64,000 nt of DNA from Bdellovibrio svalbardensis. Its GTDB lineage: Bacteria > Bdellovibrionota > Bdellovibrionia > Bdellovibrionales > Bdellovibrionaceae. Location of the stretch: NCBI RefSeq assembly GCF_029531655.1, contig NZ_JANRMI010000003.1:124001-188000 (forward strand), written 5' to 3'. Shown here in pieces: positions 15,771 through 23,430 of the stretch. Below the pieces are notes generated by a model. That model ran no database searches and had not been told where the DNA came from. It saw only the letters and a program-made list of their open reading frames with translations. A program made the translations under genes and the position numbers. Position 1 is the first letter of the stretch; every line of letters starts with the position of its first letter.

Positions 15771-15810
15771 AAAAGACCCGCATTCCAAAAAAATGCGGGT
15801 CTTTTTTTTT
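15771..15810 (+). terminator. Strong intrinsic terminator of the H1-like gene
   Basis: A 14-bp stem AAAAGACCCGCATT / AATGCGGGTCTTTT with a seven-base loop, followed by five more T residues. Confidence 0.93.
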
Positions 15811-16097: not shown

Positions 16098-18860
16098 ATG
16101 AATTACGGAAGAGTCTTACTGCCGATGAGTTTAGTTCTTTTAGCTGGATGCCAAAAGTCTACCGTCAACCAAGATCTCGCAAGCACAGTGGACAGTGCTT
16201 CTATTAAGTGCGAAGTCTCCGCCGCGGACCTCTCTTCTGCTGATGCCTCTGGTGAAAGCCTGAAGATTGTCGGCCAATCCGCAGTTCAATCCGGTAACGC
16301 CGTAAAATTCACTCTGACCGATTCAGGCAGCTGCGTGAACGGTCAAAAAGTCAGCTGGAAAGCTGCCGGTTCCAGCAGCGTTCGAACAACATCGACTGGA
16401 TTGACATCTGTATATAATAAAGCTGGATCCTATGTGGTAACTGCTCAAGAAAAGACAACAGGCACAACGGACGCGCCTGTTGTCTCATTTAAAACAGCTG
16501 TTGTCTCTGAAGAGATGATGCTGTCTGGCCCCCAAGCTGGCTTTGCATTTAATAATGTCAGCTTCTCTCTTGTCGTTCCGGCGTCAATCACGCCCAGCCA
16601 TATCAGCTTTGATTTTGGTGATGCCACAGCGACTGTGAATGACGTTCCGCAAGCGACTCATGTTTATTTTGAGCCCGGTGTTTATCAAGTGAAAGCCACG
16701 GTGACGGAAGCCAGTGGCAAAGTCACAACTCTATCTCAACGTATCACAATCATTACTCTGGTCGACGGCATGAGCTGTCTTCAAGAGCTTGCGATCTCAG
16801 GCGCCACGGAAGCAAAGGTTAAAGTGGCGACTTCTCTGTCCGTTTATATCCCACCCTGCTTAACTGATAAAATTGGAGCTGTTCGTTGGACTTTCGGAGA
16901 CAACGAAACAGGCGCCAATCAATCCGTGACTCATACATACGCAGCCATTGGCACCTATCCTGTGACAGCAACTCTCTATCTTGGTTCAAGCCAAGAGCCT
17001 TGGATTACTTTGGATCATTCAATTCGCGTGATCGAAAATCTTGTCGTCGATCCAGAGCCGCCAGCTCCAGCAGATCCGAACTCTTGCACCACTCAAGGTG
17101 CGACCCGTGAATCGCAAAGCGAATTGTATTCTGAAACTCTGGCTTGCGGCATTGATGGAACAAAATCTGTTTCATACCGCGACCGTGTTGTTGAAGAATG
17201 TAAGCTGGTCGTGGAAAAGTTGGCGTGGACTGAAGTTTCACGCACCAAAGAAGTCACCAATGAAGGACCTTGCGAGGGACAGTCTTGTAAACTTCCAGAT
17301 GGTTCTCTATTGGCAAACGGAGCTTCTAAAGTTCTCTACTCAAACGCGGCGCCAGCAGGTTCCTGCTCGACAGTCAGCGAACAACGTACTTGCAATAACG
17401 GAGTTCTTTCCGGTTCCAGCAGTTCAAATCAAATGACTTGTCATGATGGATGCGGAAACTTCGGTTCTCACGGCACCGTTAAAATTGGAGTCGTAACTGG
17501 TGAGACACAAGTTCCTCTTACTTGTTCTTTCGGAGAACAAGGATTCTTTGATGTCTATACGCAAATCTCTGATCAAACTTGTAAAGATGGTTCAGTTTCA
17601 AATTCAAACACTCGTCAAGGTACCCTAAAAACACCCGGTCAGTGTCCGGTCTACAGCTATGCTCCTACTGACGCCTTCACTGCCTGCTCTGCAGATTGCG
17701 GTGGCAAGCAAAGTCGTATCTTTGTCTGCCGCGACGATAAAGGGGTTCAAGTAGATAATGCCCGCTGCCAGGGATCTGCGATGCCGGTCGAAGAACGAGT
17801 TTGTGATGGCAATCCAGCGGCTGTACGCCGCCAAGAAGTCACAACAACTTCGGAGGAAGCGAACAGTTCAAAACTATGTCCTAAAAATCAAATTGGCTTG
17901 ATCATTAAATCACGTGATGTGGTGAATACAAAAACTTACGCTTGTATTGATCATCAGGTCCAACTTGAAAGCAATGTTTCAGTACCAAGCCCATGGGTTG
18001 AAGAAAGCTTCTGTCGCGACTACGTCGCCCGCCGTTGCTCTCAAGACAGTTTGAGCAATACCGAAGCGAAGGGTCGCTATGATTGGATGGTCAAGTGTCA
18101 AAACCAACTTCCAATCATCAAAGATTTCTTGGATAACTTCAATGACGTGAAAGTGACTTTGAGTGGTCAACAAGTCTCTTTGGGATCTGCAGGTCGCGAA
18201 TTGTACCCAACATTCATGAACTTTGCTTTCAAGCCTGAAAAACCTTGGATTGCTCCAAAAGTCAAAACTGCACCTTGCGTGATGCCTGAGACGGTTTATG
18301 TTGCGACAGTGTGTGTTTCTTCTTGTGCGACACCAGAGCAACAGATCTTGGCTCAAGAAAAAGCCAATGGAAGTTTGAAATACGTACCGTTCATTGAAGC
18401 CCTCACTAAAAACATGAACTTCGTGGCTTCATTGCAAAGTGCGCAGTCCATGGGAAGCAAAGAAGTCGTGAAAACAAAAGTCGACCAATGGGTTACTGAA
18501 TTGATCGACACTGAACATGACATCTTGGTCTTCAAAATGAAATCAGGTCGCGAGTTGAAAGTGACTCCAAATCATCCGATTGTAACTTCAGAAGGCTTCA
18601 TGAAAACTGCCGCTGAATTCAAAGCCGGAGAATCGCTAGTGCAATTGGGTGGAAACTTAGATCCAATCGTTTCTATCACCGCGACGAAGTATTTTGGCAA
18701 GGTCTACAATGTGTTTGTTCAATCCAGTGCGATTCACAAGAACATCCTTGTGACCAATGGTTACCTGAATGGTTCGGCTTACTTCCAAAATGCGGGAGTC
18801 AAAGACATGAACCGCTCATTGTTCAAACAAAAACTGACAAGCGGAGTCTTTAGCAAATGA
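16098..18860 (+). CDS. Large surface lipoprotein with PKD, TSP1-like and C-terminal Hint domains
   Basis: A 920-residue lipoprotein: signal peptide and lipobox LLAGC (Cys18 lipidated). Two PKD-like beta-sandwich domains follow (about 140-225, with FDFGD and THVYFEPGVYQVKATV; about 235-320, with WTFGD and THTYAAIGTYPVTATL). A cysteine-rich region (about 330-515) leads to a thrombospondin type 1-like segment (about 520-575: FTACSADCGGKQSR then C..., ERVC). The C-terminus (about 743-905) is a Hint domain: Cys743 as first residue of block A (CATPEQQIL), block B as LKVTPNHPIV with His826, AAEFKAGESL, and block F YNVFV...HKNILVTNG. Such domains self-cleave before the Cys. The ATG has AAGGAG. The next gene overlaps by four bases. 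Role in surface adhesion or prey contact is inferred. Confidence 0.82.
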   Translation: MNYGRVLLPMSLVLLAGCQKSTVNQDLASTVDSASIKCEVSAADLSSADASGESLKIVGQSAVQSGNAVKFTLTDSGSCVNGQKVSWKAAGSSSVRTTSTGLTSVYNKAGSYVVTAQEKTTGTTDAPVVSFKTAVVSEEMMLSGPQAGFAFNNVSFSLVVPASITPSHISFDFGDATATVNDVPQATHVYFEPGVYQVKATVTEASGKVTTLSQRITIITLVDGMSCLQELAISGATEAKVKVATSLSVYIPPCLTDKIGAVRWTFGDNETGANQSVTHTYAAIGTYPVTATLYLGSSQEPWITLDHSIRVIENLVVDPEPPAPADPNSCTTQGATRESQSELYSETLACGIDGTKSVSYRDRVVEECKLVVEKLAWTEVSRTKEVTNEGPCEGQSCKLPDGSLLANGASKVLYSNAAPAGSCSTVSEQRTCNNGVLSGSSSSNQMTCHDGCGNFGSHGTVKIGVVTGETQVPLTCSFGEQGFFDVYTQISDQTCKDGSVSNSNTRQGTLKTPGQCPVYSYAPTDAFTACSADCGGKQSRIFVCRDDKGVQVDNARCQGSAMPVEERVCDGNPAAVRRQEVTTTSEEANSSKLCPKNQIGLIIKSRDVVNTKTYACIDHQVQLESNVSVPSPWVEESFCRDYVARRCSQDSLSNTEAKGRYDWMVKCQNQLPIIKDFLDNFNDVKVTLSGQQVSLGSAGRELYPTFMNFAFKPEKPWIAPKVKTAPCVMPETVYVATVCVSSCATPEQQILAQEKANGSLKYVPFIEALTKNMNFVASLQSAQSMGSKEVVKTKVDQWVTELIDTEHDILVFKMKSGRELKVTPNHPIVTSEGFMKTAAEFKAGESLVQLGGNLDPIVSITATKYFGKVYNVFVQSSAIHKNILVTNGYLNGSAYFQNAGVKDMNRSLFKQKLTSGVFSK

Positions 18861-19573
18861 AAATAAAGACTGTTACCGCAGGGGTCATCGTTTCAGCAGG
18901 TGTCGGGATCGGGATCTATCTGATCTCGGCACCAAAGACGACAAGTTCACAAGCGCCTTCCCTAGAGTCGCAAATAGCGACTGACGTTGTGATTTCACCG
19001 ACTCCTGCTGCGAAAACTGCGATGATGAAAGCTTCTTCTGATTCGAAAGCCTCTTCGCCTCGGGAAGAGGCGGCTGCAAAGAAGGTTTGGGAAGATTTCA
19101 AGTACGGTAGAGAACTCAACAAATATGCTGCCATCGAAACGAAAGCACTGTTGTTAGAGCACGACAAAGTTGCAAAAAGAAAACTTCTGCATGACTCAGG
19201 ATTTATCCACAGCCTTCAACCTTTGTTAACAACCGTCGCAGTCCACGAAGAAGCCGCGCACTTGCAGAATGTTGCAGTGGACTTTCTTTTCGAAGCTTTG
19301 AAAAGCGATTTGCGCTCTGATGTCGTTCAAGTTCTACAAGCTGTTGTCGCGGACCCTTCTGTTGAAGATGAAAGTCGTGATTTACCATCAAGAAAATCAC
19401 TGGCGGGAGTGAAGGCAGAAATTCTTTTCAATTGGTCCTCTGTGGAGCCCACTTCTGACCCCGAAATATCGGCGGCCCTGCCCGGTCCAGTCAGTCAAAA
19501 AATCTGGGCTAACGTAAAGAAACAACAGGAAAATAATCTCGCGGAATCTGCGACGTTTCAGTCTCAAGAATAG
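18857..19573 (+). CDS. Membrane-anchored helical protein, partner of the Hint lipoprotein
   Basis: A 238-residue protein with one N-terminal membrane segment (about residues 4-24, TVTAGVIVSAGVGIGIYLI), a Ser/Thr/Ala/Pro linker (about 26-70) and a predicted all-helical domain (about 70-235) that looks like a few degenerate helical repeats (LQPLLTTVAVHEEAAHLQNV and following). The ATG overlaps the stop of the upstream lipoprotein gene (ATGA), which implies coupled translation. I do not recognise a family. It may be a periplasmic helper for presentation or processing of the lipoprotein (inference from coupling only). Confidence 0.65.
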   Translation: MKIKTVTAGVIVSAGVGIGIYLISAPKTTSSQAPSLESQIATDVVISPTPAAKTAMMKASSDSKASSPREEAAAKKVWEDFKYGRELNKYAAIETKALLLEHDKVAKRKLLHDSGFIHSLQPLLTTVAVHEEAAHLQNVAVDFLFEALKSDLRSDVVQVLQAVVADPSVEDESRDLPSRKSLAGVKAEILFNWSSVEPTSDPEISAALPGPVSQKIWANVKKQQENNLAESATFQSQE

Positions 19574-19592
19574 GCGTGCTAGCATCGTCCTG

Positions 19593-20261
19593 ATGGTTAT
19601 TGCTAGGTCCGTTTTAAAGTCATTGGCTAAGTTGTTGGGCGTTTTGTTGTTGGCCGTGCTGTGCTTTGCCTTCATCACCACAACTGCGGTTTCCTATTGG
19701 ACTGTGACGACTTTGATTTCGATTTCTTCTGATCAGGACGTCGATCATAATCTCAAGGAAGTGACCCGCATCGGACAAAAATACATCTTGGAGCTGCGAC
19801 AGTTCGAGGGACTTTTGTCAGATATCAACAAAACAAAAATGCCGCCAATTTGTTCGACTTTGTGCAATGGCGCATTCCTGGATCAGGAACGGTTTTCCAA
19901 CGAACGAGCTGCCTATTTACACAGCTTTTTTAAAAATCAAAAGGCTGCAGCTCTACAAGACCCCTCTTTCCGAATAAAAGTTGAAGAGCTGACTTTCCTC
20001 TCCAAGGCTTTTCCGAAATCCTTGCGCGCCCTCATTACGGATATTCTGGAAAGTCCTGAAAGCAAATCACATCCTTGGGCCCTCACCTTTCGATTTGAGG
20101 GTGTGATGCTTTCCGAGCTATCTGGCATCAAAGCCCACCTGATGCAGTTGAAGGTGGACTCTCACAAACTGGATGTTTTCAAAGACCTTATGAAGTCCTG
20201 CCAGGGTGGTGCCCCCCGCAAAAAGCTTATGGAAGAATGTCGCAAAGAGTTTCCCAACTAA
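19593..20261 (+). CDS. Membrane-anchored protein of unknown function
   Basis: A 222-residue protein with a strong N-terminal membrane segment (about 12-40, LAKLLGVLLLAVLCFAFITT) and a helical extracytoplasmic domain containing a Cys pair (ICSTLC, near 89-93) and another Cys pair towards the end (KSCQ, EECRK), suggesting disulfides. It starts 19 bases after the previous gene on the same strand, so it is probably the third gene of the Hint-lipoprotein cassette. The ribosome binding site is weak. No family recognised. Confidence 0.6.
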   Translation: MVIARSVLKSLAKLLGVLLLAVLCFAFITTTAVSYWTVTTLISISSDQDVDHNLKEVTRIGQKYILELRQFEGLLSDINKTKMPPICSTLCNGAFLDQERFSNERAAYLHSFFKNQKAAALQDPSFRIKVEELTFLSKAFPKSLRALITDILESPESKSHPWALTFRFEGVMLSELSGIKAHLMQLKVDSHKLDVFKDLMKSCQGGAPRKKLMEECRKEFPN

Positions 20262-23324: not shown

Positions 23325-23385
23325 GGTGCCTGCCGTTTTCTCGGAAAAGGTGCCAGGCACCTTTTCCGAGAAGATGGCAGGCACC
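23325..23385 (+). repeat. 61-base near-perfect palindrome (REP-like hairpin)
   Basis: Centred on A23355, the arms pair over 30 positions: outer GGTGCCTGCC / GGCAGGCACC and inner TTCTCGGAAAAGGTGCC / GGCACCTTTTCCGAGAA. The only two non-Watson-Crick positions (23335/23375 and 23337/23373) are G-T, which would be G-U pairs in RNA from the plus strand. It sits between the gcvP terminator and the GT9 gene. Both strands read FSEK..GTFSEK-type peptides through it, a common artefact of such repeats. Confidence 0.85.
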
Positions 23386-23430
23386 TTTTGGGTTTTGCCT
23401 TTTCTTGGGGGGGCCTTTATAGTGGGGGTT

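Follow-up and report, generated by a model that had tools for sequence, protein, structure and literature searches.

A C-type BIL protein of Bdellovibrio bacteriovorus was reportedly described in 2009 by Dori-Bachash et al. (Funct Integr Genomics 9:153), and we take Bd2400 to be that protein. The 2009 work is cited in PMC2797640, PMC9185962 and PMC11271337: PMC9185962 names the C-type BIL together with a domain found beside it, PPS-1, and PMC11271337 gives qPCR primers for bd2400. In the accessible portions of the printed literature, bd2400 is accompanied by a hint of attack-phase expression only, and no papers were found on Bd2399 or Bd2401.

The locus analysed here lies in a stretch of 64,000 nucleotides from Bdellovibrio svalbardensis (hereafter the window). 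Three open reading frames follow one another on the forward (+) strand, as a first-pass annotation of this DNA had placed them: P1 (16098-18860, 920 amino acids), P2 (18857-19573, 238 amino acids) and P3 (19593-20261, 222 amino acids, a membrane protein). The encoded proteins correspond to 16098-18857, 18857-19570 and 19593-20258, respectively. P1 and P2 share 4 bases and P2 is separated from P3 by 19 bases. A strong terminator-like hairpin (14 pairs plus a T run; 15771-15805, + strand) is found upstream of P1; it belongs to the preceding gene and is consistent with P1 opening its own transcription unit. A scan of 14-24 kb of the window against Rfam returned no matches. Further downstream, a GGTGCCAGGCACCTTTT-type sequence is repeated at 23333-23390, within the start of the 23326 ORF and near a terminator-like hairpin; this is probably an intergenic repeat, and the start codon assigned to that ORF is probably wrong.

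The N-terminal part of P1 proved to be organized much as first described. The signal peptide ends in a lipobox (LLAGC, cleaved as LAG-C; 16098-16151) that is common to the orthologues and whose motif predicts lipidation of Cys18 in the mature form. It is followed by two PKD domains (16554-17025, residues ~153-310; two stretches matched by Pfam PKD_4 above cut-off, E = 1.6e-18; PKD, E = 1.1e-17) and by a TSP1-like domain carrying the CSADCGG segment (17673-17807, residues 526-570; TSP1_ADAMTS, E = 9.3e-06, above cut-off). A Cys-rich domain (17997-18323, residues 634-742) directly precedes the Hint, or C-type BIL, domain, which extends from Cys743 to the C-terminus (18324-18857). P1 also has a further Cys-containing unit (~residues 395-453), copies of which occur in numerous other large proteins across the genus (genomes G001, G008, G015, G019 and others).

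Presence of a C-terminal Hint domain had been proposed from the letters alone, together with an HMM search of the region as a check, and the outcome of that check depends on the query. Taken as a single sequence, P1 stays under the curated cut-offs (Pfam Intein_splicing, E = 0.0016; PT-HINT, E = 0.06; TIGR01445, E = 9.7e-05 with 23.3 bits, short of the cut-off of 24.5), but family profiles match solved BIL and intein structures at E-values of 1e-6 to 1e-7. Full-length P1 orthologues were gathered from 18 relatives, plus many shorter ones. When the last 287 residues of the family were used as a profile, they matched the intein of Pho radA (E = 1.3e-06) and 2lwy, a bacterial intein-like structure (E = 5.2e-06), and a Hint-only profile of 49 sequences matches 2lwy (E = 2.6e-07) and 4e2u (E = 1.2e-06), so that similarity to the latter two structures is significant. 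In the longer of the intein alignments, profile column 11 (Cys743) pairs with the first residue of 2lcj, the Pab polC intein, and with the third residue of 1mi8, a DnaB intein construct. Intein_splicing is matched at E <= 0.01 by 40 of the 49 family members; the match to the hedgehog Hint family PF01079 is weak, with a best E-value in the family of 0.00021. An AlphaFold2 model of residues 634-920, built from two input sequences only, reached a pLDDT of 35, too low for interpretation. Judged by the profile matches, the C-terminus of P1 is a true Hint domain. True inteins were also located in relatives; a search of viral contigs gave no relative.

The two published bd2400 primers allowed this protein to be connected with the earlier literature. 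Both match the P1 orthologue of one relative (L037) exactly and define a product of 122 bp; in another (L038) the reverse primer is exact and the forward primer has 1 mismatch. In the orthologues, both primers lie inside the region that codes for the Hint domain, and the forward primer encodes ATPEQQI, the block that follows Cys743. Because the primers map to P1 orthologues in this way, P1 is, by sequence, the orthologue of Bd2400. P1 and the B. bacteriovorus-type copies share ~65-66% identity over their full length and have the same domain order; they differ in species and in gene neighbourhood. Presence of P1 within the genus is patchy, in line with what was published for SKB1291214 (PMC5941755). 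The suggestion that P1 heads a new kind of adhesin is thus not upheld: P1 is orthologous to Bd2400 and so belongs to a BIL type, the C-type, already published in 2009; it is not a new class.

Conservation within the Hint domain was analysed in 65 sequences and in the diverged set of 49, in which identity to the window copy is as low as 17%. Alignment columns average 39% identity. No more than four positions are invariant among the 49: Cys743, His826, Asn871 and Gly892. In the larger set, Cys743 is kept in 64/65 sequences, His826 in all 65 and Thr823 in 63 (the other two have Ser); 64 have Ser or Gly immediately N-terminal to Cys743. The TPNHP block is present in P1 as described, and T823-x-x-H826 forms block B. 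The idea that the Hint fold has lost its activity and survives as a structural relic, P1 being an ordinary surface lipoprotein that stays full length, would accommodate both the sub-threshold single-sequence scores and the loss of C-terminal splice residues; it is nevertheless very unlikely, since Cys743 and His826 are almost universally kept against a background of 39% mean identity. On alignment, the family retains the residue pattern required for an active N-to-S acyl shift, and the earlier assignment of Cys743 as the nucleophile agrees both with its alignment to intein Cys1 and with its conservation. A single locus (L105:3994-6975) has Gly at the nucleophile position (VCLSGGSTPE); this could be an inactive form that occurs in nature or, the genome being incomplete, an error of sequencing.

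The C-terminal side is conserved in another manner. The terminal Asn/Cys+1 had been noted as missing, and indeed neither a conserved C-terminal His-Asn/Cys nor a +1 nucleophile is found in the alignment of 65 Hint sequences, of which just 41 carry Asn at position 891. C-terminal to the Hint fold there is instead a conserved tail of ~25-30 residues (NR..LR). Splicing is unlikely because of these three features, the lack of a conserved His-Asn end, the lack of a +1 nucleophile and the conserved tail. That the Hint excises itself and joins the lipoprotein to a short C-terminal tail would fit a fold common to inteins, and some BILs that have no C-flanking nucleophile are reported to splice; set against the missing C-terminal residues, we regard this outcome as extremely improbable. 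Profile alignment to inteins and the conservation pattern thus favour, as anticipated in the first-pass annotation, cleavage or transfer over splicing.

We consider it likely that P1 is a surface lipoprotein in which a thioester at Cys743 frees the lipid-anchored N-terminal part, with P2 probably involved in this processing. After export, Cys743 would attack the Ser742-Cys743 peptide bond in an N-to-S shift aided by Thr823 and His826, and a thioester would form at Cys743. Attack by water or another nucleophile would then separate residues 18-742, the PKD/TSP1/PPS-1 portion with its lipid anchor, from the Hint domain; the freed portion would end in a free C-terminus or be linked to an acceptor.

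The Cys-rich domain that would be carried at the new C-terminus is a conserved unit in its own right (alignment A1). C647 and C667 are invariant, C727 and C739 nearly so. The unit precedes the Hint domain in full-length relatives and also in most of the short secreted proteins (~290-330 residues, without PKD and TSP1). It is probably the published PPS-1 domain. The unit and Cys743 together hold five Cys; therefore four could pair, which would leave the nucleophile free. P1 as a whole holds 30 Cys, and subtraction of the lipidated Cys18 gives an odd count, as would fit a single unpaired Cys. A PPS-1-like piece without Hint was observed in a B. bacteriovorus-type genome (G023:C1:1204356-1204628), and just after it lies a relative of the large LRR/Kelch operon protein considered below (G023:C1:1205250-1206572).

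The pairing of PPS-1 with Hint, in full-length members as in the short secreted forms, is also what would be expected if the Hint were a hedgehog-like ligase that passes its thioester to an amine or hydroxyl on a candidate target such as P2, peptidoglycan, a lipid or the prey surface, and so fixes PPS-1, in the present case with the entire lipoprotein, to that target. The architecture is hedgehog-like, with the N-side nucleophile kept, the C-side splice residues lost and the fold followed by a conserved stretch of ~25 residues, and in almost every case the P2 gene adjoins that of P1. However, simple hydrolysis would leave the same sequence pattern, and we hold ligation to be possible but rather unlikely.

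Relatives of P2 adjoin P1 in 18/18 of the first relatives. Of 33 fused-type loci, 32 have P2 at -20 to +13 bp from P1; the 33rd (L108) has a divergent P2 copy. When gene contexts were defined by single-linkage clustering of two flanking genes on each side of P1-P2, the 33 loci fell into about 18 contexts, and the pair has therefore been kept while its surroundings changed. P3, on the other hand, is found beside P1-P2 in only 1/18 relatives, a congener that shares the gcvP neighbourhood. A search for the same three-gene order in other Bdellovibrionota had been proposed as a check: the P1-P2 order is kept, whereas P3 is not part of it, and the three-gene cassette is rejected on gene order. The conserved cassette is thus, as far as synteny indicates, the two genes P1 and P2, with P3, which lies outside the unit, a local neighbour. 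Of the two membrane partners originally proposed, both have N-terminal hydrophobic segments, but P2 alone is supported as a partner. It is true that P3 starts 19 bp after P2 and shares this feature with it, as a functional adhesin cassette of all three proteins would imply; absence of P3 beside 17/18 P1-P2 pairs makes such a cassette highly improbable.

P2 begins with a hydrophobic segment (the predicted TM anchor), which a variable, disordered linker connects to a helical domain; the LPGPVSQKIW motif in its C-terminal part is conserved. Its structure model is fair in the core only (pLDDT 85-90). Foldseek gave no match to this model under E 0.1, and VIA-align found designed and ARM/HEAT-type repeats at best (Z = 7.9), so that the modelled helical domain has at best an ARM/HEAT-like arrangement. 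Naming of the P2 family from these matches was rejected, a Z under 8 not being diagnostic. P2 would comprise an inner-membrane anchor and a helical periplasmic domain and, judging from gene order, it probably handles, times or receives P1 processing. That P1 travels with this small membrane protein across the phylum looks new.

In distant Bdellovibrionota, the PPS-1/Hint module takes the form of a short secreted protein, encoded by the first gene of an operon. The order of genes is: (i) the Hint protein, (ii) an S8 subtilase-like lipoprotein, (iii) a P2-like anchored protein and (iv) a large secreted LRR/Kelch-repeat protein (L053:6396-12829, L118:4203-9999, and loci L055, L056, L109, L111, L117 and L119). 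The S8-like lipoproteins match Pfam Peptidase_S8 at up to E = 2.8e-18; His and Ser are kept in them, whereas Glu frequently occupies the probable position of Asp. The P2-like proteins are recognized by weak but repeated profile matches and by the same operon position. In alignment A3, which comprises L053:9971-12829 and its relatives, the N-terminal 450 residues of the large protein make up a separate family, for which a profile search of the PDB gave one convincing match only (Aeg-L, 9uj0, E = 5.8e-05). A MACPF/CDC-like character, suggested by eye, is not claimed: Thiol_cytolysin (Pfam) was matched by one member at E = 0.046. The genome from which the window derives has only one Hint of the P1 type and no copy of the large LRR/Kelch protein. 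No description of the split operon was found in the partially accessible literature, and this four-gene arrangement is apparently new.

The fused two-gene form (the window and Bdellovibrio) and the split four-gene form (distant Bdellovibrionota) could jointly represent a phylum-wide envelope protein-transfer system, in which the PPS-1/Hint thioester and the anchored P2 would join a PPS-1-bearing surface protein to an acceptor; in this joint form, the proposal is doubtful. Conservation of P2 and the split operon nevertheless give, within the literature accessible to us, a first handle on the role of predator BIL proteins, and they point to co-expression candidates and to acceptors to seek. If the Hint domain ligates beyond cleaving, it would provide a bacterial counterpart of hedgehog-type modification on the surface of a predator.

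Comparison with known Hint systems places the P1 family closest to, and yet apart from, three of them. With inteins it shares a profile match at E = 1e-6 and the alignment of Cys743 on Cys1, but it has no conserved C-terminal Asn or +1 nucleophile and no endonuclease, and its host is a surface protein. With the Hog/Hint domain of hedgehog proteins it has in common the expected N-side cleavage chemistry, the absence of C-side splice residues and the extra conserved tail, whereas the sequence match is weak (PF01079, at best the E-value given above) and the protein is a bacterial lipoprotein. With BIL domains it shares Hint homology by profile, the N-side Cys and T-x-x-H; unlike A-type BILs, which end in His-Asn, it has no conserved terminal His-Asn, and it differs from BIL domains in sitting within a conserved, phylum-wide protein together with PPS-1.
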